From: Arthrobacter terrae
GTDB lineage: Bacteria; Actinomycetota; Actinomycetes; Actinomycetales; Micrococcaceae
Direction: 5' to 3'
NCBI RefSeq assembly: GCF_015708085.1
Contig: NZ_JADNYM010000002.1
Location: 124,001-188,000, forward strand
Length of the DNA stretch: 64,000 nt
The notes below the pieces were generated by a model. It did no database searches and was not told the origin of the DNA. It was given only the letters and a program-made list of their open reading frames with translations. Positions 912 to 29,033 of the stretch are shown here, piece after piece. Made by a program: the position numbers and the translations under genes. Each line of letters starts with the position of its first letter. The first letter of the stretch is position 1.

Positions 912-1825
912 TGAGCTCAGCAGTCGCATCCCGAACCCGCCCATCCGCCCAGGACGTACAGAAGCCTCGGAGACATAAAAAGCGCCACTACGGTACCCAC
1001 ATCTTCCTCATCGTGATGGCCGTCATGTGGTTGATTCCGCTGCTTTGGTCACTCTTCACCGCCTTGCGCCCCAAGGCGGACACGGACAAATACGGTTACT
1101 TCAGCCTCGGCGGGGCATTTAACTTTGACAACTTTGTCCAAGCCTGGACGCAGGGCGGATTCCCAAAGTACTTTATGAACTCGCTGATTATTACCGTTCC
1201 GACGATCATTCTGGTTCTGCTGTTCTCCTCGATGATGGCTTTCGCGGTCAGCCGGGTGACCTGGAAGTTCAACATCACACTGCTGATCATGTTCACCGCC
1301 GGAAACCTTCTGCCGCCGCAGGTCCTTGCGGCACCACTGTTCAGCATGTTCAAGCACTTCAACCTGCCCTACGCCATCAGCGACTCGGGCAACCTGCTCA
1401 ACACCTACTTCAGCGTCATCCTCGTCAACACCGCCTTCCAGACCGGCTTTTGCACCTTCGTGCTCTCCAACTACATGAAGGCTCTCTCCGCGGACCTGAC
1501 CGAGGCCGCACTGGTGGACGGTGCGGGCATCTGGCGCCAGTACTGGAACATTATTCTGCCGCTCTGCAGGCCGGCCATCGCCGCGCTGGCAACGCTGGAA
1601 CTGATTTTTATCTACAATGACTTCTTCTGGCCACTGCTCTTCATTCAAAGCGGCGACCGGCTTCCGGTCACTACCGCCATTAACAACCTGCAGGGCACCT
1701 TTCTCTCCGACTACAACCTGCTGGCCGCCGGAGCAACGATCACCGTGATCCCCACGTTGATCGTGTACCTGCTGCTGCAGCGCCACTTCGTGGCCGGCTT
1801 GACCCTCGGCTCAAGCAAGGGATAG
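911..1825 (+). CDS. Sugar ABC transporter permease, MalG type
   Basis: Second permease of the importer, 304 residues, the normal length for the family. A basic cytoplasmic N-terminus precedes about six membrane segments; the EAA motif (TEAALVDGAG, then ILPLCRP) lies around residues 195-220. Its ATG overlaps the preceding stop, so the two subunits are translationally coupled. No ATPase gene is present locally; actinobacterial sugar importers of this class commonly share a distant MsiK-type ATPase. Confidence 0.92.
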   Translation: MSSAVASRTRPSAQDVQKPRRHKKRHYGTHIFLIVMAVMWLIPLLWSLFTALRPKADTDKYGYFSLGGAFNFDNFVQAWTQGGFPKYFMNSLIITVPTIILVLLFSSMMAFAVSRVTWKFNITLLIMFTAGNLLPPQVLAAPLFSMFKHFNLPYAISDSGNLLNTYFSVILVNTAFQTGFCTFVLSNYMKALSADLTEAALVDGAGIWRQYWNIILPLCRPAIAALATLELIFIYNDFFWPLLFIQSGDRLPVTTAINNLQGTFLSDYNLLAAGATITVIPTLIVYLLLQRHFVAGLTLGSSKG

Positions 1826-1915
1826 TCCGGGCAATGCGAGCGCAGCAACCGGAGCCGCCGTCGTCATCCGCCTTTTGACCACCAGCCTTGAATCAACAAC
1901 AGTGAGGAAGCTAAG

Positions 1916-2704
1916 ATGCTCGCCGACGCCCGACGCTCCGCGATAACCGCCACTGTTGCCCGCGAGGGCGTGGTGCGGGTGGCGGATCTGGCCGGCATGT
2001 TCAGCGTCTCCCTAATGACGGTGCGCCGGGACATAGATGTACTGGACGAAGCGGGCCTACTGGAAAAAATCCACGGCGGTGCGAAGATCCCCGGGGGCGC
2101 CAGTACGCACGAACCCGGGTTTGAGCTCAAATCGACGCAGGCTTTGGACGAAAAGGAAGCGATCGCGGCGGAGGCTGCCTCAATCGCGCAAGAGGGCATG
2201 GCGATCGGCCTCAGCGCGGGGACCACCACCTTTGCCCTGGCCAAGCTGCTCTGCCAGATGAGCGGACTGACCATAGTGACAAATTCGGTGCGTGTGGCAG
2301 ATGTATTCCACGCAGCCCAGGCCAAGCTTTCCGTCATTCTCACCGGCGGCGAAAGGACTCCCTCCGATGCCCTGGTGGGTCCGATTGCCACGTCTTCGGT
2401 GCGGCAGCTGCACCTGGACCTGTTGTTCCTGGGGGTGCACGGCGTTGATGCACAAGCCGGTTTTACCACCCCGAATCTGCTCGAAGCGGAGATGGACAGG
2501 GCCCTGATTACCGCTTCCCGCAAGGTGGTGGTGCTGGCGGATCACAGCAAATGGGGCATGCAGGGCATCAGCACAATCGCCGCGCTGGAGGACGTCGACG
2601 AGGTGATCAGCGATGCCGGGCTGGGCTCGGAGGCCCAGCGGGTGCTGCGGCAGCGGGTGGGTCGGCTGCGGCTGGTCCCCGTCCCGCAACGACAAACTGC
2701 CTAA
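1916..2704 (+). CDS. DeoR/GlpR-family transcriptional regulator
   Basis: 262-residue DeoR-family protein. The N-terminal winged helix (about residues 1-57) carries the recognition-helix pattern SLMTVRRDID; the C-terminal sugar-phosphate-binding domain shows the phosphate-binding signature GLSAGTTT near residue 100. The ATG at 1916 follows an AGGAAG ribosome-binding site. It sits between the permeases and the alpha-galactosidase in the same direction, so it is the likely local regulator, with a phosphorylated sugar as probable effector (family knowledge). Confidence 0.9.
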   Translation: MLADARRSAITATVAREGVVRVADLAGMFSVSLMTVRRDIDVLDEAGLLEKIHGGAKIPGGASTHEPGFELKSTQALDEKEAIAAEAASIAQEGMAIGLSAGTTTFALAKLLCQMSGLTIVTNSVRVADVFHAAQAKLSVILTGGERTPSDALVGPIATSSVRQLHLDLLFLGVHGVDAQAGFTTPNLLEAEMDRALITASRKVVVLADHSKWGMQGISTIAALEDVDEVISDAGLGSEAQRVLRQRVGRLRLVPVPQRQTA

Positions 2705-2737
2705 TAGACTCATCCGCTAAAGACGCAGAGGTACCCG

Positions 2738-5005
2738 ATGGAACCGAACCCAATGAACCCGATCCACCTGCGCGCTGCCGGGGTGAGCCTGCTGATTGAC
2801 CTGAGTTCCGGCGAGCCGTCAGTGCTGCATTGGGGCGCAGACCTGGGCAGTACGCTGCCGGATCTGTCCCTGGCCGGAGTAACGTCCGGACCGGTTCCGC
2901 ACTCGGCCCTGGATGTTCCGGTTGTCCTGGGCCTCCTGCCGCAGGCATCCTCGGGTTGGCGGGGGCGGCCCGGGCTGCGCGGACACCGGCTGGCGGTTAG
3001 CAATGGCGACGGCCGTGTTGGCGACGTTGGCGACGGCGGCGGAGGAACCGACCGTGGTGGCGACAACGAAACCCGTGACGGAGCCCGCCGCGGCTTCTCC
3101 GCCCGGTTACGGCTGACCGGGAGCCACGCTACCGAACGCTCGGCCAGCATCACCACCGCCGATGCACAACTTGGCCTGACTGTGGTCACCGAAGTGACAC
3201 TGCACGACGGCGGGCTGCTGGAGCTCCGCCATCGTCTCACCAACGACGGCAGCACTGACTATGCGCTGGAGGAACTCGCGGCCGTCCTGCCGGTTGGCCC
3301 GGAAGCCACCGAGATACTCGACCTGACCGGGCGCTGGTGCCGCGAGCGCCACCCGCAGCGCCATGGTGTTCAGCAGGGAACCTGGCTGCGCAGCGCCCGG
3401 CACGGCCGCACCGGCCATGATTCCTCGCTATTGATGGCTGCCGGCTCCCTGGGGTTCGGCAACCGGCAGGGAAAGGTCTGGGCCACGCACTTTGCCTGGA
3501 GCGGGGACCATGAATCCTATCTGGATGCGGTGGCCGATGGCCGCAGGGTTCTGGGTGCCAGCGAGGTATTAGGGTCCGGCGGGATTGTGCTGGCACCGGG
3601 CAGAAGCTACGTCACTCCGGCACTGTTTGCCGCCTACTCCAGCAGCGGACTGGACGGGATTTCCGCGGCGTTTTATTCGTGGTTTCGGGGCAGGGCGAAG
3701 CACCCCTCCACGCCGAGACCGGTGGTCCTCAACACCTGGGAAGCGGTCTATTTCAACCATGACCTGACGGTACTCACCGCGCTTGCCGACTCGGCCGCGG
3801 ATCTGGGAGTGGAGCGCTTCGTGCTCGACGACGGCTGGTTCCGCCACCGCCGCGACGATCACGCCGGTCTGGGCGACTGGTACGTTGACCCAACGGTGTG
3901 GCCCGAGGGCCTGCATCCGCTCATTGACGCCGTCACGGACCGGGGAATGGAATTCGGGCTGTGGGTGGAACCGGAAATGATCAACCCGGATTCGGACGCG
4001 GCGCGGGCACATCCGGACTGGATCTCCGGGCCCGGTTCCCGCCTCCCGCTTCAATGGCGCCATCAGCAGGTGCTGGACCTGGTGAACATAGAGGCCTGGC
4101 AATATATTTATGACCGGTTGGACGCCCTGTTGAGCGAATATCGCATTTCCTACCTCAAATGGGACCAGAACAGGGATCTGACCGAAATGGGGCACGCGGG
4201 CGGCCCGTCCGCGCATGAGCAGACTTTGGCCACCTACCGGCTCCTCGATGCCCTGCGTGCTGCTCACCCGGACGTGGAAATCGAAAGCTGCTCCTCCGGA
4301 GGCGCCCGGGTTGACCTGGGGATCCTGGAACGGACGGACCGGATCTGGGCCTCGGACTGTAACGATGCGCTGGAACGGCAGACCATCCAACGCTGGACGT
4401 CGATGGTCGTCCCCCCGGAACTCGTCGGTGCGCACGTCGGACCGCCCACCTCACATACCACCGGACGCACGCATGCGCTGTCGTTTCGTGCCATCACTGC
4501 ATTGTTCGGGCACTTCGGGCTGGAATGGGATATCCGCTCCCTGTCCGTTTCCGAACACGATGAACTACGCAGTGCCATCGAACTGTACAAAAAGCACCGC
4601 ACACTGCTCCACACCGGCCAAATGGTCCGTGCCGACCTGCACGATCCATCACTGCTGCTGCACGGTGTAGTCGCCGGGGACGGGTCCGAGGCGCTGTTCG
4701 CGCTTGTGGCGGTGTCGACGTCGTTCTCGGAGCAGCCGGGCCGCGTCGCCATTCCCGGGCTGGCGCCCGAGCGCAGCTACTGCGTCAAGGTGATCTACCC
4801 GTCCGCGCAGGATCCTGCCCCCGCCTCTGTCCATGAAGAAGCCGGCCTCACCGGTCGCGATGCCGGTCCCTATGTGCAGACGTCCGCGCCGGCGTGGCTG
4901 GCCGGCGGAGTCGTGGCCTCCGGTCAGTTCCTGTCAGAGTCTGGCCTCCCGATGCCCATTCTGAACCCGGAACACGCCATCCTGCTGCACATCAGCGCCG
5001 CCTAA
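2738..5005 (+). CDS. Alpha-galactosidase, GH36 family
   Basis: 755-residue GH36 enzyme that hydrolyses terminal alpha-1,6-galactosides. The N-terminal beta-supersandwich is followed by a TIM barrel with the diagnostic nucleophile motif YLKWDQNRD (Asp about residue 476) and the acid/base motif WASDCNDA followed by R and IQ (Asp about 540). The CSSGGARVD motif lies between them. No signal peptide is seen, so action is cytoplasmic on imported sugar. It lies 33 bp after the DeoR gene. A Gly/Asp-rich low-complexity insert of about 25 residues near residues 90-120 interrupts the N-terminal domain. Confidence 0.95.
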   Translation: MEPNPMNPIHLRAAGVSLLIDLSSGEPSVLHWGADLGSTLPDLSLAGVTSGPVPHSALDVPVVLGLLPQASSGWRGRPGLRGHRLAVSNGDGRVGDVGDGGGGTDRGGDNETRDGARRGFSARLRLTGSHATERSASITTADAQLGLTVVTEVTLHDGGLLELRHRLTNDGSTDYALEELAAVLPVGPEATEILDLTGRWCRERHPQRHGVQQGTWLRSARHGRTGHDSSLLMAAGSLGFGNRQGKVWATHFAWSGDHESYLDAVADGRRVLGASEVLGSGGIVLAPGRSYVTPALFAAYSSSGLDGISAAFYSWFRGRAKHPSTPRPVVLNTWEAVYFNHDLTVLTALADSAADLGVERFVLDDGWFRHRRDDHAGLGDWYVDPTVWPEGLHPLIDAVTDRGMEFGLWVEPEMINPDSDAARAHPDWISGPGSRLPLQWRHQQVLDLVNIEAWQYIYDRLDALLSEYRISYLKWDQNRDLTEMGHAGGPSAHEQTLATYRLLDALRAAHPDVEIESCSSGGARVDLGILERTDRIWASDCNDALERQTIQRWTSMVVPPELVGAHVGPPTSHTTGRTHALSFRAITALFGHFGLEWDIRSLSVSEHDELRSAIELYKKHRTLLHTGQMVRADLHDPSLLLHGVVAGDGSEALFALVAVSTSFSEQPGRVAIPGLAPERSYCVKVIYPSAQDPAPASVHEEAGLTGRDAGPYVQTSAPAWLAGGVVASGQFLSESGLPMPILNPEHAILLHISAA

Positions 5006-17332: not shown

Positions 17333-19249
17333 TCAGCGTTGCAGGACAGCCACCCCATAAGGGCCAAGGTCAGCCGACTCGATGGCGTCCCCGCCCAACG
17401 TCCGCAATGCCGCCGAAGCCAGCCCAACCGCCGTCGGCCCGGAGTGCTGGCTGAGCAGAACCACAAACTCCCTGCCGTCCTCGTGAATCAGGGAGTCCGC
17501 GAAGATCAGCGGATCATCGAGCTGCACCGGGCCGCGGATACCGGCAAGTGATGCCAGCGCCTCGTAAAGCCGGTAGGTATCTTCCGGATTGATCCGGCCC
17601 TGCGCCGCCGCAAGATATTCCAGCGGATAGGTGCACAAGACGGTCCGTCCCGCGCCGTGTTGCTTGACGATCAGGGCCGGATTGCCGCGTCCGTCAACAG
17701 CCACCACGGTTCCGTCGGTAGCCTGGACCGGCAGGAAAGCCCGGGAATGCTCGTTGCCCGCAGCCTTGAAGCGCAGCACGTCGCCCTTGGCCAGTGTGCC
17801 GAAATCCTCGGTAAAGGTCAGCTCAACCACGTCATCGTCAATCGGGTTGTTCAGCCCATAGACCAACTGACGCTCGACCCCGAAGATCTCCTCGGTGTAG
17901 ATCCACCACGGCCCGCGCTGCGCCTGCGTTTCGCCAACGCAGTAGGAGGCATAAACGGTGGCGCCCGCTGAAGCCAGCCGCGGAAGCTGAACCCAGGATG
18001 GCCCCGTCAGTGCCTTAATGGACGGCAGCAGATACAGACCATAACCCTCCGGCAGGCCGCCGTCCTCGGCTTCCCGCACCACGCCCACGGGCAGATGTGC
18101 CTCATGCGCCGCCACGTATGACTGCTCGGCGGTCGTGACCACCAGTTCCCGTTCTGCCTCTTCAGTGAAGGGGTAGTCTGCAGCCAGATAGGAGGTCAGG
18201 ACCAGTGCCGCGGACACCTGTGCACGCCGGAGCCGGGGCAGGTCGATGGCTTTAAGGGTATCGGCGAATGCCTTGAGCTCCAGGAGCGCCGGTTTGGGCG
18301 CACCGTCCGCATCGGTTATGCCGAAGTGCAGCTCAAACGGATGGTGGTTGTAGGGCCGCTGGTCCAGGATCGCGTCATAGTCCGTGTTATTCCAGGCGAT
18401 CCAACCCGTCGCACCCGCCAGCAGCGTATTGTGCAGCAGTTGACGGTAATAGTGTCCGGCATTTTCGGCGGAGACAAAGTCACTGGACAGACCGAATTCC
18501 TCCATCACCACCGGCTGCCCGGTAACTGCGGACATTTCGGCGATGAAGGCCGCTTTCAGATGCTGGCGCAGCACGTCCGATTCCATTCGGTATACGTGCG
18601 GCCCGACAAAATCGGTGAACGGCGCCAGATCACGGATGGAAAAGCCGTTGTCATGACCGGTGGTTTCAATCCCCCAGGCCCCGTCTCCAATCGACACCGG
18701 CTGCCGGCCACCGCCGGCCCGCACCGCGTTGACCATGAGCTCCGACCAGGCCGCCACCTCTGCCCGGGTTGCCTCGCCACCGTAAATCGGAACCTCATTA
18801 GTGATCAGCCAGCCGGCAACCGCGGGATGGCCGGCAAATCGCTCCACCAGGGACTTGATGTACCAGGCCTGCCGGTTCACAAACCAGACATCCGTATAGA
18901 GGTTCCTCCCCGCCCGCCAACGTGGATCCCAGTTCTCACCGGACATGTGCCCCACGATGAAGGTGGGGACCGTGGTCATTCCGGCGCTGTGGTGCGCGTC
19001 CAGGAAATCCGCGAAATGTGCACAGGCCTCCTCGTTCAGCGTGTGCGGTTCCGGCTGGAAATCCGGCCAGTAGTAGAAGGAGCGCGTCAGGTTCAGCCCA
19101 TGGCGGGCCAGGACGTCCAGTTCCTCCCGGATTACGGCGCCGTCGTAATTGCGCCACATCAGCGGGCCGCCGGTCCGCGACCAAAAATTGGCACCGAGCC
19201 AATTAGCCGGACTGCCGTTGGTTGCCAGCATACCAAAATTGCGCTCCAT
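17333..19249 (-). CDS. GH5-like glycoside hydrolase (cellulase/mannanase clan A)
   Basis: 638 residues. A TIM barrel occupies about residues 1-330 with both clan-A catalytic glutamates: acid/base in WLITNEVP (Glu152) and nucleophile in VVMEEFG (about Glu251). A Trp-rich tract (GWIAWNNTDYD) closes the barrel, and a C-terminal beta-rich/glutaminase-like region extends to the end. No signal peptide, so it probably acts on imported oligosaccharides. It is the last gene of the ABC-transporter operon, 4 bp after the permease. Exact subfamily and substrate are unknown. Confidence 0.8.
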   Translation of the reverse strand: MERNFGMLATNGSPANWLGANFWSRTGGPLMWRNYDGAVIREELDVLARHGLNLTRSFYYWPDFQPEPHTLNEEACAHFADFLDAHHSAGMTTVPTFIVGHMSGENWDPRWRAGRNLYTDVWFVNRQAWYIKSLVERFAGHPAVAGWLITNEVPIYGGEATRAEVAAWSELMVNAVRAGGGRQPVSIGDGAWGIETTGHDNGFSIRDLAPFTDFVGPHVYRMESDVLRQHLKAAFIAEMSAVTGQPVVMEEFGLSSDFVSAENAGHYYRQLLHNTLLAGATGWIAWNNTDYDAILDQRPYNHHPFELHFGITDADGAPKPALLELKAFADTLKAIDLPRLRRAQVSAALVLTSYLAADYPFTEEAERELVVTTAEQSYVAAHEAHLPVGVVREAEDGGLPEGYGLYLLPSIKALTGPSWVQLPRLASAGATVYASYCVGETQAQRGPWWIYTEEIFGVERQLVYGLNNPIDDDVVELTFTEDFGTLAKGDVLRFKAAGNEHSRAFLPVQATDGTVVAVDGRGNPALIVKQHGAGRTVLCTYPLEYLAAAQGRINPEDTYRLYEALASLAGIRGPVQLDDPLIFADSLIHEDGREFVVLLSQHSGPTAVGLASAALRTLGGDAIESADLGPYGVAVLQR

Positions 19250-19253
19250 GCTG

Positions 19254-20093
19254 CTACTTCACCGCCCCGGCGGTCAGTCCGGCCACAAAGTTCCGCTGCA
19301 GCAGCAGGAAGCCGACGACGACGGGCACGCTGACCACCAGCGACGCCGCCATAATCTGGTTCCAGTACACGTTCGTTTGGGTCGAATAGAGCTGCAGCCC
19401 AACGGCCAGCGTTCGGTTGGACTCCGTCGTCATCACGGACGCGAACAGGACCTCGCCCCAGGACGTCATGAAACTATAGATGGCCACGGCAATCAGGCCC
19501 GGTCTGGCAGCCGGCAGGATCACGCGGAACAGCGCTCCCATCGGCCCGGAACCGTCCACCTTTGCGGCCTCGTCAAGCTCGCGCGGAATCCCGTCCAGAT
19601 ACCCGGACAACATCCAGATGGAGAAGGGCAGCGAAAACGTCAGGTAGGTAATAACCAAACCAAGCCGGGTGCCTACCAGCTGAATTCCCACCGCGGAATT
19701 GATGTTCACGAAAATCAAAAACAACGGCAGCAGGAATAGTACGCCGGGGAACATCTGGGTGGACAGGACGGTCGTGGAGAAGATGGACCGGCCGCGGAAC
19801 CTGTAGCGCGAGATCGCGTAAGCAGCGAAAACCGCTATCACCAGGCTGAGGATTGTCGCCGCCCCGGCCACAATCACGCTGTTGACGAAGTAGCTCGCCA
19901 GCGGGACCGTCTTCCACATGTCGATAAAAGGTGTAATGGTCAGCTCCGACGGCCACCAGGTGAACGCGCCCTGCACATCACGCAGTGGTTTCAGCGCGGA
20001 AATGACCATCACGTAAACGGGCACCACCGTGAAAACCGTCAGGACCGCGATCACCACCATCCGAAAGACTTTTGCTGGAGTTGTTTCACGCAC
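19254..20093 (-). CDS. Carbohydrate ABC transporter permease, MalG type
   Basis: 279 residues, six membrane segments. The EAA loop RELDEAAKVDGSGPMGALFRVILPAARPG lies near residues 175-205. It overlaps the preceding permease gene by 8 bp. It is part of the importer encoded by the minus-strand operon under the ROK repressor. Confidence 0.92.
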   Translation of the reverse strand: MRETTPAKVFRMVVIAVLTVFTVVPVYVMVISALKPLRDVQGAFTWWPSELTITPFIDMWKTVPLASYFVNSVIVAGAATILSLVIAVFAAYAISRYRFRGRSIFSTTVLSTQMFPGVLFLLPLFLIFVNINSAVGIQLVGTRLGLVITYLTFSLPFSIWMLSGYLDGIPRELDEAAKVDGSGPMGALFRVILPAARPGLIAVAIYSFMTSWGEVLFASVMTTESNRTLAVGLQLYSTQTNVYWNQIMAASLVVSVPVVVGFLLLQRNFVAGLTAGAVK

Positions 20094-21060
20094 GCTTGGA
20101 CCTCCGGTTCAAAACGAGTAGGTAGATTCCGGTGACCAGCAGCAGGAAGAGCAGCAGCAGCACCGACATGGCCGCGCCGGAGCCGAAGTTCCAGGTCAGG
20201 AAGGAGGCGTTATAGATGTGGAAGGAGATCAGGTCACCGGCGGGAGGCTGCGCATTGCCAAACAGCACAAACGGAGTGTTGAAGTCATTGAACGTCCACA
20301 GGAACATCACCAGCACCAGCACCATGTTCACTGGCCGCACCATCGGCAGCGTAATCGAAAGCCACTGCCGGAACGGCTTGGCTCCATCCACGGCCGACGC
20401 CTCATACACGTCCGTGGGAATGGACTGCAACCCGGCCATCAGCATGAGAAAAGCGAACGGCCAGAGCCGCCAGATGGCCACAATAACGACGGCGGCAAAA
20501 GCGTTGTCGCCAATCAGCCAGAACGGTTTGTCCCCGGAGATCCCAAGGTTGTCATACAGGAAGTGGTTGAGCGCGCCGGTGTCCTTTTGCAGCATGAACT
20601 TCCAGGCAATGATTCCGGCGTACATGGGCAGCGCATACGGCACCAGGAAAAGGGTGCGGAAGAAGCCTTGTCCCCAGAACTTCTTCTGCAGAGCGACGGC
20701 TGCGGCCATGCCAAGGCCCCAGGAGATTCCGACAACTAAAATGGTGAAGCCACAGGTAATCAAAAATGACTGCAGCAGCGACGCCCCCACGGCGCCGTTG
20801 AAGTCCAAGGCCACCTGATAGTTCTTAACCCCGATAACCGGAGCGCGGCCCCAATTGGAGATAAAGGCCTTGGTGAGTTTTAGGAAACTCATCCAAATTC
20901 CGGTGAACATGGGAATTACGTGAATGACGAGCTCAAAAATAATGGCCGGAGCCAGCAGCGCGTAGGGAAGCCACCAACCGGAGCGCCGGGGCCGGCGCGG
21001 GTTGCGGTCCGCGGGTTTGGTGGTTTTATCCGAAGTTGGAGTGGCAGTCGCAGCGGACAT
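20086..21060 (-). CDS. Carbohydrate ABC transporter permease, MalF type
   Basis: 324 residues from the ATG at 21060, which lies just after a GGGGAGTCC stretch; an in-frame upstream extension is discarded. A basic proline-rich cytoplasmic N-terminus precedes the first membrane helix (LPYALLAPAIIFELVIHVIP). The EAA loop (YEASAVDGAKPFRQWLSITLPMVRP) is near residues 225-250. Partner of the adjacent MalG-type permease. Confidence 0.92.
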   Translation of the reverse strand: MSAATATPTSDKTTKPADRNPRRPRRSGWWLPYALLAPAIIFELVIHVIPMFTGIWMSFLKLTKAFISNWGRAPVIGVKNYQVALDFNGAVGASLLQSFLITCGFTILVVGISWGLGMAAAVALQKKFWGQGFFRTLFLVPYALPMYAGIIAWKFMLQKDTGALNHFLYDNLGISGDKPFWLIGDNAFAAVVIVAIWRLWPFAFLMLMAGLQSIPTDVYEASAVDGAKPFRQWLSITLPMVRPVNMVLVLVMFLWTFNDFNTPFVLFGNAQPPAGDLISFHIYNASFLTWNFGSGAAMSVLLLLFLLLVTGIYLLVLNRRSKRA

Positions 21061-21107
21061 CCGGAGGACTCCCCTTTCTGTGCTGGTGCGGACGGGCGAA
21101 GGGACGC

Positions 21108-21149
21108 GCCGGGCGGCCGTGCAAAACTGAACCTGCGGGACCGCCCGGC
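21108..21149 (-). terminator. Intra-operon hairpin between binding-protein and permease genes
   Basis: GCCGGGCGG (21108-21116) pairs perfectly with CCGCCCGGC (21141-21149). It lies in the 108-bp gap after the solute-binding gene without a U-tract. In ABC importer operons such hairpins commonly stabilise the binding-protein mRNA and reduce permease expression; that role is inferred here. Confidence 0.55.
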
Positions 21150-21168
21150 CCATCCTGCGGAAGGCAGA

Positions 21169-22482
21169 CTATCCGGCTGCCGCGACCTGCTGCTGTGCAG
21201 TCTCCATCGCCTTGCGGATGTCATCCGTGCTGACCGTTCCGCCCGAAGCGATGGTGGCGTACATCTGGTTCATCGCCTTGCCCACGGTGCTTTCAAACTG
21301 GTCCTCTGCGGGCACCAGCGGAAGCGGCTTTGACTTGTTGGCGTAAATGTCGGAGAAGATCTTCGCTTCCTCCGGGTTATCAGTGAAGTTCGCAGTGGCA
21401 CCATTGAGCACCGGCAGCGCCGCGAAAGGCTTGTCCAGCGCTGTCTGCGTCTCGGGGCTGGTCATGAACTTCACGAACTTCAGCGCCGCGTCCTTGTTCT
21501 TGGTGTTTTTGAAGATGGAAAGATTAATGCCGGCCACGTGGCTGGCAACGTCCTTGCCGCCCTTCGGTGCGGGGAAGGCCACAACCCCGTACTGATCGCT
21601 CTTCATGCCGTTGGCAACAATGCTGCTGTCGGCGTTGTTCTGGTTGATGATCATTGCCACCTTGCCGGTCGCGAAGTCGTTCACGGCTTTGGTGCCGTTG
21701 TCATACTGCGCGTTCGCTACATCCACCACCTTGTCCGTCTGCATCAGATCAAGCTGACGCTTGATGCCGTCCACTACACCGTCGGAGGTGAAGGTGGGCT
21801 TGCCATCGGAGTCAAAGAGGTCTGCACCGTTCTGGGCGGCGTTGATGAAGGCGAAGTGGGCGTTTTCGGTGTAGCTCCCGGCCGCCAGGGCGAAGCCGTG
21901 CTGGTCTCCGGTCGTCAGTTTCTTGGCATCTGCGACCATGTCCTCCCACGTCGTCGGCGGTGTGAGGCCCGCGTCGGCGAACATGGCCTTGTTGTAGTAC
22001 AGGCCATACGCCAGGCCGTACAGCGGAACAGAGGTGGGGTCCTGGCCCGGCATGCCGCCGGTGTCCAGCGCGGTTTTGACGAACTTATCCTTGCCTCCAA
22101 TGGCATCCATGGCGCTGCTGTCGAACGGCATGAAGGCCTCGGTGGACTGCAGTGATGCTGCCCAGGTATTACCGATGTTTACGACGTCGGGAGCCTGCCC
22201 GGAGGTAACGGCGGTCTGGATACGTGTCTGCAGATCGTTCCAGCCAATCACCTCGAGATTCACTTTGACCCCGGTCTGGTCCTGGAACTTCTGCAGCTCA
22301 GGGGTCAGGACGGCCTTGTCATTGTCCAAGCTGGTGCCCTGGTTACTGGCCCAGTACGTGATGCTGCCGCCACCACCGGAGCTCTCCGAAGAACCGGAGG
22401 CATTGTTGCTTCCGCCGCACGCTGACGTTGTCAGCGCCAGTGCGGCGATGGCCGCCGTTGCGGCAAGGGTACGAATTTTCAC
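21169..22482 (-). CDS. Extracellular sugar-binding lipoprotein
   Basis: 437 residues. A lipoprotein signal peptide ends in the lipobox LTTSAC (Cys22), followed by a Gly/Ser linker and a family-1 solute-binding fold (ITYWAS, then VKVNLEVIGWNDLQTRIQTA, GQAPDVVNIGNTWA). First gene of the minus-strand importer operon. Its promoter (TTGACG, 17 bp, TAGTTT at 22574-22546) is overlapped by the ROK-type operator described separately. Confidence 0.93.
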   Translation of the reverse strand: MKIRTLAATAAIAALALTTSACGGSNNASGSSESSGGGGSITYWASNQGTSLDNDKAVLTPELQKFQDQTGVKVNLEVIGWNDLQTRIQTAVTSGQAPDVVNIGNTWAASLQSTEAFMPFDSSAMDAIGGKDKFVKTALDTGGMPGQDPTSVPLYGLAYGLYYNKAMFADAGLTPPTTWEDMVADAKKLTTGDQHGFALAAGSYTENAHFAFINAAQNGADLFDSDGKPTFTSDGVVDGIKRQLDLMQTDKVVDVANAQYDNGTKAVNDFATGKVAMIINQNNADSSIVANGMKSDQYGVVAFPAPKGGKDVASHVAGINLSIFKNTKNKDAALKFVKFMTSPETQTALDKPFAALPVLNGATANFTDNPEEAKIFSDIYANKSKPLPLVPAEDQFESTVGKAMNQMYATIASGGTVSTDDIRKAMETAQQQVAAAG

Positions 22483-22545
22483 TGAATGACTTCCTTGTCT
22501 GTATCCAAAGTGCGCCTGTAAAGCCAGGGATTCGGCCTAGGCACC

Positions 22546-22581
22546 AAACTAGATGACCTTTTGTCGATCGTCAATCAAAAG
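22546..22581 (-). promoter_or_regulatory. Promoter and 24-bp dyad operator of the importer operon
   Basis: On the minus strand, CTTTTG at 22581-22576 and AAAAG at 22562-22558 flank the -35 TTGACG (22574-22569); the -10 TAGTTT is at 22551-22546 with 17-bp spacing. The 24-bp element matches the one upstream of the divergent operon at 20 of 24 positions. Two direct GGTAAAT repeats 11 bp apart lie next to it (22584-22601). Confidence 0.7.
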
Positions 22582-22649
22582 TTGGTAAATAGTCGGTAAA
22601 TTCTTTTTGGTGCCGGAATACAGCAGTAAAAACCGGTGGGCCTGCGGAG

Positions 22650-23867
22650 CTACTGGCCGGCCAGCAGCGCGTCCACGCTGGCGGGGGCAAGGACATGGTC
22701 AATCACCATTCGGCTGGCACCCAGGACGCCTGCCCGGTCTGCCGCCATCGACTGCACAATCCGCAGCCGGGCGGTGGCCAGCGGCAGCGAGCGCTGGTAG
22801 ACAATCTCACGCACGCCGGCCATGAAGTAGTCTCCGGCCGTCAGCAGCCCCCCGCCAATGACGATGATGGATGGGTTGAGCAGGTTTACACAGCCCGCCA
22901 ACACGTCGCCGACATCCCGTCCGGCCTGCCGCATGGCAGCGATGGCGGGCAGGTTGCCTCTATGTGCGAGCTCCAGGACATCCTCGCCGGTGACGGCCGG
23001 AATTCCGTCCGCGGCCAGGGCCGCAGCGACAGCCGGCCCCGAGGCCAGCGCTTCCAAGCAGCCGTAGTTCCCGCAGCGGCACAACACATCGCTGCCGCGC
23101 GGCACGCGAACGTGCCCGATATCCCCGGCTGTACCGTCGGATCCGCGCTGCAACAGTCCGCCGCTGATCAGCCCCGCGCCGATGCCGGTCGCAACCTTGA
23201 CGAACAACAAATCCTGCGCGTGCGGCCAGTAGATGGCCCGTTCCCCGAGGGCCATGATATTGACGTCGTTGTCCACCAGAACCTCGGTCGCAAGCGAGCG
23301 CTGTACGTATCCCGGGACATCGAAACCGTCCCAGCCGGGCATGATCGGCGGATTCGCCGGCCGGCCGGTGGAATGCTCCACCGGCCCTGGCAATCCGATG
23401 CCAACCCCCGCCAGCTCCCGTTCATGCCGCCCGGCCTGCGCCAGCAGTTTTTGGCAGTCCTGCACCACAAGATCGAGCACCGCCCGAGGGCCGGCTGAAA
23501 TGTCAATGGCTGCGCGGGCTTCACACAGCACGCGTCCGCTGAGGTCCGTCAGCGCCACGAGCATATGGGTTGCGCCAATGTCCGCGGCGAGAACGACGCG
23601 CGCTGTTGGCTGAAATGCCAGGCGTGACGGCGGTCGACCGCCGGAGGAGACCGCCTCGCCTGCCGGGCCGATTAACCCGGAAACGGTCAGGGCGTCTATT
23701 CTGCTGGCCACAGTGGACCGTGCCAATCCGGTGATCTCCGCCATTTCCGCCCGGGTTCGCGCGTGTCCGTCGCGGAGCAGCTGAAAGAGCTCACCGGCGC
23801 GTGAAAGGCTTGCTCCGGAGGCCGCTGGTACAGCTGGCCCGGCACCGGTCAGACGTGGCATTAACAT
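22650..23867 (-). CDS. ROK-family transcriptional repressor (XylR/NagC type)
   Basis: 405 residues. N-terminal winged helix (about 25-75; RAEMAEITGLARSTVASRIDAL) fused to a ROK sugar-kinase fold: DIGATHMLVALTDLSG, GIGLPGPV, DNDVNIMALGE, and the zinc signature CRCGNYGCLEALAS. It lies between the two operons, transcribed away from the isomerase/dehydrogenase operon, and is the natural candidate to bind the 24-bp dyad found in both promoters, with release by an imported or oxidised sugar (inference). Confidence 0.92.
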   Translation of the reverse strand: MLMPRLTGAGPAVPAASGASLSRAGELFQLLRDGHARTRAEMAEITGLARSTVASRIDALTVSGLIGPAGEAVSSGGRPPSRLAFQPTARVVLAADIGATHMLVALTDLSGRVLCEARAAIDISAGPRAVLDLVVQDCQKLLAQAGRHERELAGVGIGLPGPVEHSTGRPANPPIMPGWDGFDVPGYVQRSLATEVLVDNDVNIMALGERAIYWPHAQDLLFVKVATGIGAGLISGGLLQRGSDGTAGDIGHVRVPRGSDVLCRCGNYGCLEALASGPAVAAALAADGIPAVTGEDVLELAHRGNLPAIAAMRQAGRDVGDVLAGCVNLLNPSIIVIGGGLLTAGDYFMAGVREIVYQRSLPLATARLRIVQSMAADRAGVLGASRMVIDHVLAPASVDALLAGQ

Positions 23868-23946
23868 GCCTTTATTGATAGCACGCCCGGACGGCAGACC
23901 GCACTTAGAGCGGGCATAATTCCGTTTTGTGTCGAAACCCTTGGTA

Positions 23947-23982
23947 CTTTTGCTTGACGCTCGGTAAAAGCTGGCCTACGTT
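23947..23982 (+). promoter_or_regulatory. Promoter and 24-bp dyad operator of the isomerase/dehydrogenase operon
   Basis: -35 TTGACG (23954-23959), 17-bp spacer, -10 TACGTT (23977-23982). The -35 box lies inside a 24-bp element (23947-23970) that starts CTTTTG and ends TCGGTAAAAG, matching the importer-operon element in 20 of 24 positions. Repressor binding here would block RNA polymerase. Confidence 0.7.
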
Positions 23983-24046
23983 GTTGGATGACTGCCGTTG
24001 TTGCATAGCTGCACAACCACCGCCCCCACTACCGTCAGGAGAACCC

Positions 24047-24781
24047 GTGACTTACTCCCTTCAGCTCTACACCGTCCGAGGCCCCTTGGAGGCGGATCTT
24101 CCGGGGACCATCAAGCGGGTGGCCGAGATCGGATACACTGCCGTCGAGCCCTATAATTTCGTGGCGACCGCCGATGAGTTGGCAGCGGCCCTGACGGCTA
24201 ACAACCTCACTGCGCCTTCCGGCCATGCTCCCTTGTTGCGCGCAGACCAGGATCAGATCTTTGCCGCCGCGCAGAAACTGGGCATCTCAACGGTCATCGA
24301 TCCGCACGTGGACAGCAGCCGCTGGAACACCGAAGAAGACATTGTGGCCACCGCCAAGGCGCTGAACGCCGCGGCTGCGAAGGGCGCCGGCTACGGCATC
24401 CGGGTGGGTTACCACAATCACGAGTTCGAGCTGGAATCGCGTATCAGCGGCCGCTCCGGCCTGGAAGTCCTGGCCGCGCATCTTGATCCTTCGGTGGTGC
24501 TGGAAGTGGATACCTACTGGGCCGCCGTTGGTGGCGAGGATCCGGTGAAGCTGCTCGGACGGCTCGGCGAAAGGGTCAAGCTGATCCATATCAAGGACGG
24601 CCCGCTGACGAAGGAAAACAAGGACCAGGTGGCCGTCGGACAGGGCAGCGCGCCGATCTGGGATGTCATTGCAGCCGTGCCCGGTCTGGAGATCGGCGTC
24701 GTCGAACTTGATGACTTCAACGGCGATATCTTCGACGCCGTGACCGAAAGCTTAAACTACCTCAAGGCAGGACGGAACTAA
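24047..24781 (+). CDS. Xylose-isomerase-like TIM-barrel protein (sugar phosphate isomerase/epimerase family), copy 1
   Basis: 244 residues from GTG 24047, which follows TCAGGAGA. AP-endonuclease-2-type TIM barrel with the metal-binding acids and histidines in order: GYHNHEFE, LEVDTYW, IHIKDGP and VVELDD near the C-terminus. It is the first gene of the operon and its stop is directly followed by the next ATG. In this family members act as isomerases, epimerases or, in C-/O-glycoside cleavage systems, as lyases on 3-keto sugars. The role is inferred from neighbours. Confidence 0.85.
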   Translation: MTYSLQLYTVRGPLEADLPGTIKRVAEIGYTAVEPYNFVATADELAAALTANNLTAPSGHAPLLRADQDQIFAAAQKLGISTVIDPHVDSSRWNTEEDIVATAKALNAAAAKGAGYGIRVGYHNHEFELESRISGRSGLEVLAAHLDPSVVLEVDTYWAAVGGEDPVKLLGRLGERVKLIHIKDGPLTKENKDQVAVGQGSAPIWDVIAAVPGLEIGVVELDDFNGDIFDAVTESLNYLKAGRN

Positions 24782-25939
24782 ATGAGCCAGCAACCGAACC
24801 AGACCAGCGGCCGTCAAGCGGGTGAACGGACCGGTCCCGTCGGGGTCGCCGTAATCGGTGCAGGAGTTATCAGCAAGGAATACCTGACCAATCTGACCAG
24901 CTTCCCGGACATTAAGGTCCACATAGTTGCCGACATATTCGAGCAGGTCGCCGCGGAACGGGCCGCGGAATTCGGCATCGGCGCCTCCGGTGGAGTGCAG
25001 GCGGCGCTGGATCACCCGGATGTTGAGATCGTCGTCAACCTCACGATTCCCGCCGCGCACGTCGAGGTCGCGACGGCGGCACTGAATGCCGGCAAACATG
25101 TCTGGAGCGAAAAGCCATTCTCGCTGGACCGGGACAGCGGTCTCGGGCTGCTCAAGGCCGCTGATGCCGCGGGCCTGCGCCTCGGCTGCGCGCCGGACAC
25201 GTTTCTGGGCGCCGGAATGCAAACCGCTCTTCGCATCATTGCCCGAGGGGACATTGGCGTGCCGTTGACGGCGCTGACGCTCATGCAGTCCCCCGGGCCG
25301 GAGTCCTGGCATCCCAACCCGGCATTCCTGTTCCAGGAAGGTGCTGGGCCGCTGTTTGACATCGGCCCGTATTACCTAACAGCACTGGTGCAGACCTTTG
25401 GCGCCATTACCAAGGTCGCCGCCTTTGGGTCCAAATCCCGCGAAACCCGGATCATCGGCTCGGGGCCCAAGGTCGGGGAAGAATTCGCTGTCACGGTCCC
25501 CAGCCACGTCAGCGCCATTGCAGAGTTCGCGGGCGGAGAATCCTCGCAGAGCATCTTCAGCTTCGATTCCCCGCTCAAGCGGGCAGGTTTCGTCGAAGTC
25601 ACCGGGACCGAGGCGACAATCGCCATCCCGGATCCCAACATGTTCGACGGCGATATCATTCTGACCCGCCGCGGTCAGGACGAGCCGGAGACTATCCCGG
25701 CCGTGGGCGCCACCAGCACCCGCGGCTCCGGCGTACTCGAAATGGCGCGCGCCCTCCGGGCAGGGCGTCCGCACCGAGCTCAGGGAGCCGTTGCATATCA
25801 CGTGCTCGATGCCATGGTCTCCATTGCCGAGTCCATTGACACCGGTCAATTCGTTTCTTTGCAGAGCAGCGCGGATGCCGCCGAGCCGCTGCCGGAGGAC
25901 TGGGACCCCACCGCCGCCACGCTTGAAGAAGCGCCGTGA
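24782..25939 (+). CDS. Gfo/Idh/MocA-family oxidoreductase, copy 1
   Basis: 385 residues. N-terminal Rossmann domain (VGVAVIGAGVISKEYLTNL) and the EKPFSLD motif, whose lysine is catalytic in the family, near residue 107; C-terminal alpha/beta domain with a DIGPYYLTAL segment. Such enzymes oxidise a sugar hydroxyl, often C3 of a glycoside, using NAD(P). Start ATG one base after the preceding stop; 4-bp overlap with the next dehydrogenase. Confidence 0.9.
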   Translation: MSQQPNQTSGRQAGERTGPVGVAVIGAGVISKEYLTNLTSFPDIKVHIVADIFEQVAAERAAEFGIGASGGVQAALDHPDVEIVVNLTIPAAHVEVATAALNAGKHVWSEKPFSLDRDSGLGLLKAADAAGLRLGCAPDTFLGAGMQTALRIIARGDIGVPLTALTLMQSPGPESWHPNPAFLFQEGAGPLFDIGPYYLTALVQTFGAITKVAAFGSKSRETRIIGSGPKVGEEFAVTVPSHVSAIAEFAGGESSQSIFSFDSPLKRAGFVEVTGTEATIAIPDPNMFDGDIILTRRGQDEPETIPAVGATSTRGSGVLEMARALRAGRPHRAQGAVAYHVLDAMVSIAESIDTGQFVSLQSSADAAEPLPEDWDPTAATLEEAP

Positions 25940-27108
25940 GCATCGCCCAGCCGGATCGGGCCGCGCCCGGTTCAGGCCACCCGCTGGGCGTGGCTGTAAT
26001 CGGCTATGCCTTTATGGGCAAGGCGCATTCGAACGCCTGGCGCAATGCGGGCGCTTTCTTCGACGTGCCAGCCTTTACGCAAAAGGTCTTGGTCGGCCGG
26101 GATGCGGCTGCGGTTGCTGCGGCAGCGGCCCGGTACGGCTGGGCCGAATCGGCCACCGACTGGCGCGAAGTTATTGCCCGGGATGACATCGACATTGTGG
26201 ACATCTGCGCGCCGGGGGCCCTGCATGCCGAGATTGCCGTCGCAGCGCTGGCAGCCGGAAAGCACGTGCTGGTGGAGAAACCACTGGCTAATTCGCTCGG
26301 CGAGGCCAACGCCATGGTTGCCGCGGCGCAGCAGGCCCGTGACCGCGGTGTCCGGTCAATGGTCGGGTTCACCTACCGCCGCGTTCCCGCGCTGGCGCTG
26401 GCCCGCAGCCTGATTGGCGGCGGAAAACTCGGTGTGATCCGCCACGTCCGCGCGGCCTACCTGCAGGACTGGCTCACCGATGACGGTTCCCCCATGACCT
26501 GGCGGCTGCGTAGGGAATCTGCCGGTTCAGGGGCGCTCGGCGACATCGCCAGCCATGCCATCGACCAGGTGCAGTTCCTGCTCGGTGACTCGGTGACCGA
26601 GGTCTCCGGCCGGCTGCACACCTTTGTCACCGAACGTCCCGGTCCACACGGCCCGGAAGCGGTAACGGTCGACGACGCCGCCTGGGCCACGCTGTCCCTC
26701 GCCGGCGGCGCGGTGGCCAGCGTTGAGGTCTCCCGGATGGCACTGGGCCGCAAAAATGCCCTGCAGATCGAGGTCTTCGGCAGCAAAGGCAGCCTCCGGT
26801 TTGATCTGGAGAACCCCAACGAGCTGTACTTCTTCGACGGTATGGATCCCATTAAGGAACAAGGGTTCCGCCGCATCCTCGTCACGGAACCAGAGCACCC
26901 TTACGTAGCTGCCTGGTGGCCACAGGGACACGTGCTCGGCTGGGAAAACAGCTTCACGCACGAGATCAGGGACTTCCTGCTGGCCGTCGGCTCCGGCACC
27001 GACCCGTCGCCGTCGTTCGAAGACGGGCTGGCCGTCCAGCGCGTACTGGCCGCCATCGAGGAATCGGCAGCAGCCAAAAGCTCCCTCATCCAACTAGCCC
27101 AACGCTGA
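25936..27108 (+). CDS. Gfo/Idh/MocA-family oxidoreductase, copy 2
   Basis: 390 residues from GTG 25936 overlapping the previous stop (GTGA). Rossmann motif VAVIGYAFMGKAHSNAWRN, catalytic-lysine motif VEKPLANS (about residue 115), and a GDIASHAIDQVQFLLGD segment typical of inositol/glycoside dehydrogenases. It differs clearly from copy 1, so the two probably act on different substrates or at different steps. Confidence 0.9.
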   Translation: MSIAQPDRAAPGSGHPLGVAVIGYAFMGKAHSNAWRNAGAFFDVPAFTQKVLVGRDAAAVAAAAARYGWAESATDWREVIARDDIDIVDICAPGALHAEIAVAALAAGKHVLVEKPLANSLGEANAMVAAAQQARDRGVRSMVGFTYRRVPALALARSLIGGGKLGVIRHVRAAYLQDWLTDDGSPMTWRLRRESAGSGALGDIASHAIDQVQFLLGDSVTEVSGRLHTFVTERPGPHGPEAVTVDDAAWATLSLAGGAVASVEVSRMALGRKNALQIEVFGSKGSLRFDLENPNELYFFDGMDPIKEQGFRRILVTEPEHPYVAAWWPQGHVLGWENSFTHEIRDFLLAVGSGTDPSPSFEDGLAVQRVLAAIEESAAAKSSLIQLAQR

Positions 27109-27150
27109 CCAGCACCCGATTCCGCAGCAGCCAACTCCAAGGAGCCAGCC

Positions 27151-28152
27151 ATGACCCGCCCCTATACACTCTTTACCGGCCAATGGGCCGATCTGCCCTT
27201 CGAGGAGGTTGCCAGGCTCGCGTCCGGCTGGGGCTATGACGGCCTGGAAATCGCTGTATCAGGGGACCATCTGGACGCCTCGCAATGGGACGACGACGAC
27301 TACGTTGCCGGCAAACTGGCTGTACTGGAGAAATACAACCTCAAGGTCTGGGCCATCTCCAACCACCTCAAGGGTCAGGCGGTCTGCGATAACCCAATCG
27401 ACTTCCGGCATCAGGGGATCGTCGGCACCAGGGTGTGGGGCGACGGCGACCCGGAGGGAGTCCGGCAGCGCGCCGCCGAGGACATGAAGGACACCGCACG
27501 GTTAGCCGGAAAACTCGGTGTTAAGACAGTCGTAGGCTTCACCGGTTCTTCCATCTGGCAGTACGTTGCCATGTTCCCGCCGGTTCCCGAATCCGTGATC
27601 GACGCCGGCTATCAGGACTTTGCCGACCGATGGAACCCGATCCTGGACGTCTTTGATGAATGCGGCGTCCGCTTTGCCCACGAGGTCCACCCCTCCGAAA
27701 TCGCCTACGACTACTGGACCACAGTCCGCACTTTGGAGGCCATCGGCCACCGGGAAGCCTTCGGCATTAACTGGGACCCCAGCCACTTCATGTGGCAGGG
27801 CACCGATCCGGTTTCCTTCATCTGGGACTTCAAGGACCGGATTTACCACGTCGACTGCAAGGACACGAAAATGCGCCTGACCGGGCGGAACACCGTCCTG
27901 GGCTCGCACCTGCCCTGGGGGGATCCGCGCCGGGGCTGGGACTTCGTCTCCGCCGGCCGAGGAGACGTGCCGTGGGAATCGAGTTTCCGGGCACTGACCG
28001 CCATCGGCTACGACGGACCCATCTCCATTGAATGGGAAGACGCGGCAATGGACCGCCTTGAGGGTGCCCCCGAGGCTCTGGCGGCTCTGAAAAAGTTCAG
28101 CTTTTCTCCCTCCGGGCAGTCCTTCGACTCCGCTTTCAGCAATCAGGATTAA
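27151..28152 (+). CDS. Xylose-isomerase-like TIM-barrel protein, copy 2 (candidate 3-keto-glycoside lyase)
   Basis: 333 residues, starting ATG after AAGGAG. Metal ligands are recognisable: AHEVHPSEI, INWDPSHF, YHVDCKD and SIEWED. It is longer than copy 1 and has an aromatic-rich loop (GSSIWQYVAMFPP). Proteins of this shape include the catalytic subunit of bacterial C-glycoside deglycosidases, which cleave 3-oxo-glycosides by metal-assisted elimination; I see no small partner subunit (DUF6379) next to it. Function is therefore a hypothesis. Confidence 0.85.
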   Translation: MTRPYTLFTGQWADLPFEEVARLASGWGYDGLEIAVSGDHLDASQWDDDDYVAGKLAVLEKYNLKVWAISNHLKGQAVCDNPIDFRHQGIVGTRVWGDGDPEGVRQRAAEDMKDTARLAGKLGVKTVVGFTGSSIWQYVAMFPPVPESVIDAGYQDFADRWNPILDVFDECGVRFAHEVHPSEIAYDYWTTVRTLEAIGHREAFGINWDPSHFMWQGTDPVSFIWDFKDRIYHVDCKDTKMRLTGRNTVLGSHLPWGDPRRGWDFVSAGRGDVPWESSFRALTAIGYDGPISIEWEDAAMDRLEGAPEALAALKKFSFSPSGQSFDSAFSNQD

Positions 28153-28358: not shown

Positions 28359-29033
28359 ATGCCCCGGATAGCCGCCCCTACGAACGTAGAACAGCGCGCG
28401 CAGACCCAGCGCAAAATTTTAGCCGCCTTCGGTACCCTTCTTTTTACTCATGGTCTGCCCGGCCTGACCATGACGGACGTCGCCCGGCAGGCAGGTGTGG
28501 GTCGAACCGCCGTCTATAACTACTTTGCCGATCTGGAGCAGCTTCTCGTTGCTTATGCTTTGGATGAAACCGGCCGGTTCGTCAGTGATCTGAAAACCGA
28601 GCTGGCCCGGCTGGACAGCCCCGTAGACCGGCTGGCGCTGTACATCCGGGTCCAGATGGAGGATCTGGCACGCCGCCACCTCCCGCCCGGCCCGGCCATG
28701 CGATCCGTTCTGTCGCCTGGATCCTTTGCCAAACTTGGTGTCCACGTCGGCGAGCTCAACGCCGTGCTGGCGGACATTCTGCGCGACGGCATGGAGCAGG
28801 GCTACATTCCACTCGACGATGTGACGAGCCTGGCACCCCTGATCCACGGCTCTCTTGCCGCCAGCGCCTCCCGCGGGAACGAGCAGGACGCGGTGGAAAA
28901 CGCGGCCCACATAGCCGGCGCTGTCCGATTTATCCAAGCCGGCGTCGGCGTTGTCTTCGGCGCCGACGGACACCCGGTCAGAAGCTTCCCGGCTGCCCGC
29001 TGGCCTACGGCGGGCTGGTCGCGCCCGGAGTAG
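28359..29033 (+). CDS. TetR-family transcriptional regulator
   Basis: 224 residues. The HTH lies at about residues 20-65 (KILAAFGTLLFTHGLPGLTMTDVARQAGVGRTAVYNYFADLEQLL, standard TetR spacing). The ligand domain is variable and gives no substrate clue. Its 3' end overlaps the convergent LytR_C gene by 29 bp. No obvious efflux or catabolic target is adjacent. Confidence 0.88.
   Translation: MPRIAAPTNVEQRAQTQRKILAAFGTLLFTHGLPGLTMTDVARQAGVGRTAVYNYFADLEQLLVAYALDETGRFVSDLKTELARLDSPVDRLALYIRVQMEDLARRHLPPGPAMRSVLSPGSFAKLGVHVGELNAVLADILRDGMEQGYIPLDDVTSLAPLIHGSLAASASRGNEQDAVENAAHIAGAVRFIQAGVGVVFGADGHPVRSFPAARWPTAGWSRPE

Follow-up and report, generated by a model that had tools for sequence, protein, structure and literature searches.

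A divergent Arthrobacter locus predicted to encode a four-step, non-hydrolytic glucoside pathway

Known four-step pathways and the Arthrobacter island

Sugar cleavage through oxidation, elimination, hydration and reduction has been described in several bacteria. Kuritani et al. (PMC7676230) showed the four levoglucosan reactions for Bacillus smithii, and that paper and PMC10066097 describe the pathway, LgdA-B1-B2-C, as consisting of two Gfo/Idh/MocA (Gfo) proteins and two TIM barrels; the same four-step scheme appears for C-glycosides in Kastner et al. (PMC13273386). In Agrobacterium, PMC10628242 describes a glucoside operon that encodes an O-glycoside beta-eliminase (OGE; the Agrobacterium enzyme is AtOGE), a hydratase (HYD) and a Gfo protein reported, on partly preliminary evidence, to reduce 3-keto-glucose after OGE and HYD. 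Here we analyzed a stretch of 64,000 nucleotides from Arthrobacter terrae (assembly GCF_015708085.1, contig NZ_JADNYM010000002.1, positions 124,001 to 188,000; the window). Its island at 17333-28152 most likely adds a new actinobacterial case to the known non-hydrolytic glucoside pathways of four steps. Our literature searches gave no earlier description of the locus among the matches listed.

The island consists of two divergent transcription units around the gene of a ROK-family regulator. The minus-strand unit encodes a sugar-binding protein, two permeases of an ATP-binding cassette (ABC) importer and a GH5-like glycoside hydrolase, and the plus-strand unit encodes, in this order, a TIM barrel (TIM1), two Gfo proteins (Gfo1 and Gfo2) and a second TIM barrel (TIM2), with intergenic gaps of 0, -4 and 42 bases. 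An initial annotation had placed an importer, a GH5-like protein, two Gfo proteins and two TIM barrels here, and these genes are real and lie where it put them. All island genes have a coding-like guanine-cytosine content at third positions and close relatives in other genomes. The source genome has 4.43 Mb, and its named relatives belong to Arthrobacter and Paenarthrobacter.

In the proposed pathway, the sugar ABC importer, together with GH5 in some close relatives, would supply beta-glucosides or beta-gluco-oligosaccharides. Gfo1 would oxidize C3 of the glucosyl unit with oxidized nicotinamide adenine dinucleotide (NAD+), and the putative metal lyase TIM1 would then eliminate the aglycone, which yields 2-hydroxy-3-keto-D-glucal. 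TIM2 would hydrate this product to 3-keto-D-glucose, and Gfo2 would reduce the latter with NADH to D-glucose, which would enter central metabolism. The NAD cofactor would thus be recycled, and the cleavage would be redox-neutral and non-hydrolytic. We infer the catalysis from gene content, homology, active-site residues, predicted fold, co-occurrence and the shared operator. We assign a probability of roughly three in four to a four-step pathway with these roles for the TIM barrels, whichever Gfo protein carries out which step. Sequence, structural and genomic evidence all support the order proposed initially, in which a Gfo protein oxidizes C3 and a TIM barrel then carries out the elimination. 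We saw no gene for an ATPase, a sugar kinase or a classic isomerase in the island, as had been noted before for kinase and isomerase catabolism, and free glucose as the product would explain the absence of a local kinase or isomerase.

The island has a predicted lyase, a predicted hydratase and a putative Gfo reductase in common with the Agrobacterium operon; the OGE ligands and catalytic His are retained in TIM1, and HYD is related to TIM2. Unlike the island, where a Gfo protein is predicted for this step, the Agrobacterium system carries out the first oxidation by GlycDH, which we take to be a flavoenzyme. A Rhizobium locus whose HYD matches at 85% has Gfo proteins at both places, unlike the Agrobacterium operon. 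The levoglucosan pathway likewise combines two Gfo proteins with two TIM barrels but includes a levoglucosan dehydrogenase (LGDH) over the model cut-off, of which the island's genome has none. AL1 of Alistipes and BT1 of B. thetaiotaomicron (PDB 8tcd, 8tcr and 8tct) have a YHNH-type motif that is also found in TIM1. They differ from TIM1 in sequence (23-26% identity), come from Bacteroidota and are known here by their PDB titles. This pathway is reportedly the subject of a Nature paper and an Angewandte paper, both from 2024.

The predicted lyase, hydratase and oxidoreductases

TIM1 (24047..24781, plus strand; 244 aa, PF01261) is the predicted 3-keto-O-glucoside lyase, or beta-eliminase. Its start is GTG 24047, which is preceded by AGGAG and from which its relatives align; this replaces the TTG at 23927 given initially. 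The best solved sequence relative of TIM1 is AtOGE (8bvk, E 2.7e-18), and the alignment pairs His132, the catalytic His134, Asp163 and His189 of AtOGE with the same residues. The expected counterpart of the weakly coordinating Glu233 falls outside the 8bvk alignment; a Glu at the expected place in the C-terminal strand is invariant, together with the other site residues, in 25 sequences that are 29-100% identical to TIM1. TIM1 thus has the residues of the OGE metal site (His, Asp, His, Glu) as well as the catalytic His, the Glu by way of the relatives' alignment. Moreover, the predicted structure (pLDDT, a predicted local distance difference score, 97) had as its top matches AL1 and BT1, 3-keto-beta-glucopyranoside-1,2-lyases (8tcd, 8tct; template modeling scores of 0.82-0.85 by query length). 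AtOGE ranked 7th, behind the uncharacterised 3obe, followed by IolE (13th), SCO6571 (21st) and DgpB-C (48th). All available tests of sequence and modeled fold point to TIM1 as a probable lyase related to AL1, BT1 and AtOGE.

The DgpA-C/CGE systems also combine oxidation by a Gfo protein with elimination in a metal TIM barrel, as proposed for the island, and the initial annotation had taken DgpA/DgpC-type enzymes as its yardstick, in structure comparison as well. Those systems have a small partner subunit of the CGDB type. The absence of such a subunit, also noted initially, was borne out among the ten island proteins; a search of the whole genome found none either but is weak, since its controls were missed too. 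With no small subunit in the island, AL1 and BT1 at the top of the structural ranking and DgpB-C only at rank 48, we rejected the C-glycoside DgpA-C/CGE reading. A better fit is given by the levoglucosan and O-glucoside pathways, whose four enzymes work without a small subunit and which, like the island, combine two Gfo proteins with two TIM barrels, the predicted lyase and hydratase. The oxidase dependent on flavin adenine dinucleotide that had been reported missing is indeed absent from the island, and the genome carries two GMC-type flavoproteins on other contigs.

TIM2 (27151..28152, plus strand; 333 aa, PF01261) is the predicted 2-hydroxy-3-keto-glucal hydratase. It matches AtHYD (8ro4), a 2-hydroxy-3-keto-glucal hydratase, at E 4.3e-38 and, over nearly its full length, SCO6571 of Streptomyces coelicolor (2zds; 550 bits, E 2.7e-164, 331 of 333 residues), which was deposited as a putative DNA-binding protein without a function. 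TIM1 and TIM2 share 23% identity over 56 residues (E 0.2-0.3), and sequence comparison indicates that TIM2 is an AtHYD-related protein distinct from TIM1. Relatives of TIM2, 80-82% identical to it, lie close to lgdA, lgdB1 and lgdC in two levoglucosan loci of family genomes (L179 and L182) and on an Arthrobacter agilis plasmid (L185); the LgdA proteins of all three exceed the curated cut-off, that of L185 with 747 bits. All five family genomes that bear LGDH carry TIM2. The levoglucosan loci thus lend independent support to the predicted role of TIM2. Kaur et al. (PMC10066097) describe two Paenarthrobacter levoglucosan users without LgdB2, for which an uncharacterised group, LgdB3, was proposed as a possible stand-in. 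TIM2 is a candidate for this protein. TIM1 and LgdB1 differ (25-29% identity), and by inference the glucoside and levoglucosan pathways would meet only from 2-hydroxy-3-keto-glucal on.

Gfo1 (24782..25939, plus strand; PF01408, PF22725) is the predicted NAD-dependent glycoside 3-dehydrogenase, and Gfo2 (25936..27108, plus strand) is the Gfo/Idh/MocA protein predicted, from the neighborhood of TIM2 and the tree, to reduce 3-keto-glucose. The two are 27-28% identical and belong to different clades in a midpoint-rooted tree of 47 Gfo proteins. One clade (support 100/100) unites Gfo1 with the Gfo proteins that adjoin the lyase in Rhizobium and Deinococcus and with Gfo1-type proteins from other Actinobacteria and from Chloroflexi. 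On the TIM2 side, the Gfo proteins of four loci (L078, L086, L125 and L128) group with LgdC (98/94), and those beside TIM2 or HYD of the Rhizobium/Deinococcus type fall on the LgdC side as well (98/93). Gfo1 thus partners the lyase in Actinobacteria, Chloroflexi, Deinococcus and Rhizobium, and the Gfo slot beside TIM2 is variable. LgdC is the 3-keto-glucose reductase of B. smithii (PMC7676230). Because Gfo1 stays constant beside the lyase and the TIM2 slot can be filled by proteins of the type of this known reductase, oxidation would probably fall to Gfo1 and reduction to Gfo2. When structures were searched with the Gfo1 model, scyllo-inositol dehydrogenase (top), LGDH, GFOR and DgpA1 scored much alike, as they did in a profile search, and the BT_2158 and BT_2159 models scored only 20-43 bits against the island proteins, far under their cut-offs, which does not decide the Gfo roles.

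The initial annotation regarded both steps as duplicated. However, TIM1 and TIM2 are barely alike, as are Gfo1 and Gfo2, and each protein fits a different step; since the four proteins fit four successive steps, the apparent duplication would be elimination plus hydration and oxidation plus reduction.

Co-occurrence, operator and accessory genes

Of 149 family genomes surveyed, 54 (from 16 of 32 genera) have TIM1 at E up to 1e-30, and 86 (from 22 of 32 genera) have TIM2 at E up to 1e-100. TIM2 was present in all 54 genomes with TIM1 versus 32 of the 95 without it (Fisher 3e-18, a test that ignores kinship). Among the first 100 genomes, shuffled within genome-size classes, TIM1 without TIM2 had a mean of 8.5 and reached the observed 0 in 0 of 20000 shuffles. 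Fourteen of the 54 TIM1 genomes have no same-strand TIM2 within 8 kb, yet each carries a copy elsewhere. In one of these fourteen (G143), the TIM2 copy has stops, and the TIM1 match is also shortened.

The locus comparison covered 80 of 132 relatives, in named records. TIM1 was at least 44% identical in 48 of the 80 loci, and a Gfo1-type gene lies directly 3' of it in 47; in the 48th (L131), this gene follows a second TIM1-like gene. A Gfo2-type gene lies within 300 bp of TIM2 on the same strand at 75 of 103 TIM2 places. The cassette has a clear modular build. The TIM1-Gfo1 pair alone was detected in many Arthrobacter loci and in loci of Microbacteriaceae, Kineococcus and Streptomyces, and on plasmid pSI-1 the Gfo2-TIM2 pair is accompanied by importer genes and by genes for a further TIM barrel and a zinc-binding dehydrogenase, with no TIM1-Gfo1 pair in the stretch. 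Deinococcus and Rhizobium plasmids hold both pairs, namely TIM1-like (34-36%) with Gfo1-like (41-45%) genes, and TIM2/HYD with another Gfo. In several Bacteroidota loci, a distant TIM1 lies near Gfo2-like and TIM2-like genes of about 30% identity.

Three loci assigned to Vibrio cholerae (L121), Acidobacteria (L096) and Sporosarcina (L113) hold Arthrobacter-like TIM1-Gfo1 genes, and contamination or mislabeling is probable; all three are included in the downstream-Gfo1 counts, and L113 in the operator count below. The island's own genome has a second TIM-Gfo-TIM-Gfo cluster on another contig (C27; L023:8534-12499), between two LacI-like genes, beside an ABC importer and followed by a uronate isomerase (UxaC)-like gene, the neighbors being identified by eye. 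Its proteins are only distant relatives of the island proteins, and it may serve hexuronide handling.

The ROK-family regulator (22650..23867, minus strand; PF00480, PF09339) has an N-terminal helix-turn-helix. Predicted operators lie 5' of the importer genes (22558..22580, minus strand; TTTTGATTGACGATCGACAAAAG) and 5' of the four-enzyme operon (23948..23970, plus strand; TTTTGCTTGACGCTCGGTAAAAG), and the pattern common to both upstream regions is TTTTGNTTGACGNTCGRYAAAAG. With this pattern, built from the two window sites, we counted sites of up to 5 mismatches in 49 loci of our choice, 48 of which have a TIM1 upstream region. The operator stands 5' of TIM1 in 31 of the 32 loci counted with ROK versus 2 of the 16 without it, and one of these two (L025) has lost its ROK gene. 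In the single miss (L128), ROK was counted from a short match, and the locus comparison gives only 27% there. Two contigs had entered twice (L077/L116 and L087/L099), and the ROK class becomes 29 of 30 when the repeats are removed. The operator also stands 5' of the importer genes in 17 of 24 cases; in the other 7, these genes sit 3' of Gfo1 on the same strand. Shuffled upstream regions gave 0 of 480 under 6 mismatches. Random 260-base stretches of the same loci, drawn with only the window's island left out, gave 11 of 600 with a site of up to 5 mismatches, and these may be operators themselves. No further site was found in the genome within 3 mismatches, and a reversed control pattern gave one. 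Scans for promoters and terminators gave no more matches than shuffles. The operator's presence tracks the ROK gene and the site is conserved in relatives, so that the earlier claim of one regulon held up: a single ROK-controlled regulon, with a predicted operator shared by both units, is supported by sequence comparison.

The GH5-like protein (17333..19249, minus strand; 638 aa) scored 31.2 bits for PF00150 against a cut-off of 23.5. Its nearest solved relatives are endo-beta-mannanase 7bob (E 1.7e-23, residues 18-178) and ScGH5_18 (E 1.2e-13), and it resembles mannan- and mannoside-active enzymes. It occurs in 7 of 103 rows of the locus comparison, which represent four genomes. One related genome (G002) has the locus without GH5, importer and ROK, and another (G004) has GH5 fragments only and no importer; in both, the four enzymes are still present and 90-98% identical to those of the island. 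We rejected GH5 as the core of the system on the grounds of these losses; GH5 and the importer are accessory. These losses form a natural series within the genus (loci L025 and L027): one species lacks importer, GH5 and ROK at the locus, the other has GH5 fragments and no importer, and the four enzymes are retained in both. In two other Micrococcaceae loci (L183 and L082), genes for ThuA and PD40 proteins and for a further Gfo stand in the place of GH5 beside the same importer; in the tree, this Gfo from L183 falls with YcjS, on a long branch.

The importer comprises a MalG-like permease (19254..20093), a UgpA/MalF-like permease (20086..21153; both PF00528) and the sugar-binding protein (21169..22482, PF01547), all on the minus strand. 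The nearest solved relative of the binding protein is Lin1841 (5ysb, E 5.2e-30), followed by a putative maltose-binding protein and CbpB. Lin1841 binds beta-1,2-gluco-oligosaccharides, and the closest lyases to TIM1 have 3-keto-beta-glucopyranosides in their PDB titles. Beta-glucosides are our best guess at the substrate, with low confidence; beta-gluco-oligosaccharides in particular are a tentative choice, somewhat short of even odds.

Two neighboring features of the window were not counted with the island. A TetR gene (28359-29033) accompanies the cassette in the genus and in a few other loci only. A separate sugar locus (57-5005) holds a GH36 alpha-galactosidase, a regulator-like gene recognized by eye and two ABC permeases that are 27-28% identical to those of the island.

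Alternative readings and implications

Several observations weigh against the proposed pathway or its assignments. The catalytic site of Gfo1 reads D-I-G-P-Y, so that a Tyr stands four residues past the conserved Asp, where Gfo2, LgdA and LgdC have His; neither the Tyr nor the Asp varies among 18 relatives, and glucose-fructose oxidoreductase likewise has Tyr at that catalytic position. Gfo2 is closer to the 3-dehydrogenase LgdA (40-41% identity) than to LgdC (33-36%). The initial claim that both TIM barrels keep their metal ligands holds for TIM1 (His/Asp/His/Glu); TIM2 has Asp in the column where two AtHYD-like proteins of Rhizobium have His, with a His two residues earlier. Additionally, 32 genomes have TIM2 but no TIM1, only two of five levoglucosan loci of family genomes carry TIM2 (in the stretches fetched), and 36 of 111 Gfo2 places lack TIM2 within 300 bp (75 have it). 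Only 9 of 32 distant TIM1 relatives (<44%) have a Gfo1-type gene downstream, two of them weak. The island also lacks an ATPase gene for its importer, and GH5 would be redundant beside a lyase route.

The two oxidoreductases might exchange roles, with Gfo2 oxidizing the glycoside and Gfo1 reducing 3-keto-glucose, which is a sub-case of the four-step pathway and overlaps with its probability. The grouping of Gfo2 with LgdA (100/98) speaks for this, as does the plasmid locus L185, where a single small gene separates lgdA from the TIM2 relative downstream of it. That small gene (L185:7679-7954) is annotated as a "putative quinol monooxygenase". Nevertheless, Gfo1 stays with the lyase throughout the close relatives and the other slot is exchanged for LgdC-type proteins, and we consider the swap unlikely, with something like one chance in four. 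If the cassette instead opened 1,6-anhydroglucose with LgdA/B1/B2/C-type enzymes, its four-enzyme composition would equal that of Bacillus smithii, and the resemblance of Gfo2 to LgdA and the presence of TIM2 in levoglucosan loci would fit as well. However, the model for levoglucosan dehydrogenase, with a cut-off of 650 bits, gives Gfo2 only 327, and no protein of the genome exceeds this cut-off. LGDH over the cut-off occurs in 5 of 100 family genomes, all five of which also have TIM1, on another contig. Together with the low identity of TIM1 to LgdB1, this makes a levoglucosan pathway improbable.

We regard the two remaining alternatives as slightly less probable still. E. coli YcjQRS is annotated as converting a D-guloside to a D-glucoside via a 3-keto intermediate, and the 4-epimerase YcjR sits between two dehydrogenases and adjoins an ABC importer; such an epimerization is highly improbable here, given that BLAST (E up to 10) does not match YcjR with TIM1 and gives only E 0.2 with TIM2, that YcjS is 26% identical to Gfo1 or Gfo2, and that no zinc-type dehydrogenase of the YcjQ kind is among the island proteins. 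A single epimerase would, moreover, leave two barrels with lyase- and hydratase-like relatives unexplained. Inositol catabolism of the IolE/IolG type, or plain sugar isomerases, the case that the initial annotation named as its refutation, is very improbable to the same degree: there are weak matches to the IolE and IolG models, and Gfo1 has its best structural match in scyllo-inositol dehydrogenase, but the scores are far under the cut-offs (IolE 41-42 bits against 290; IolG 60 and 124 bits against 355), and the best structures for TIM1 are 3-keto-glucoside lyases rather than IolE.

Taken together, the comparisons favor the four-step glucoside pathway, and we hypothesize, at about even odds, that proteins of the SCO6571/TIM2 family serve actinobacteria generally as 2-hydroxy-3-keto-glucal hydratases and would fill the LgdB3 hydration step, missing so far, of actinobacterial levoglucosan use, and that Gfo1 represents a new clade of glycoside 3-dehydrogenases with Tyr for the catalytic His. 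As part of this hypothesis, TIM2 would be the common exit of several oxidize-and-eliminate modules, such as TIM1-Gfo1, the levoglucosan dehydrogenase-lyase pair and others, for example the zinc dehydrogenase-TIM pair of pSI-1. Our analysis proposes concrete functions for four families that are named only "sugar phosphate isomerase" or "Gfo/Idh/MocA oxidoreductase", and would extend non-hydrolytic glucoside use to a further large bacterial group. The TIM2 comparison also points to a possible 2-hydroxy-3-keto-glucal hydratase in levoglucosan-using Actinobacteria without LgdB2.

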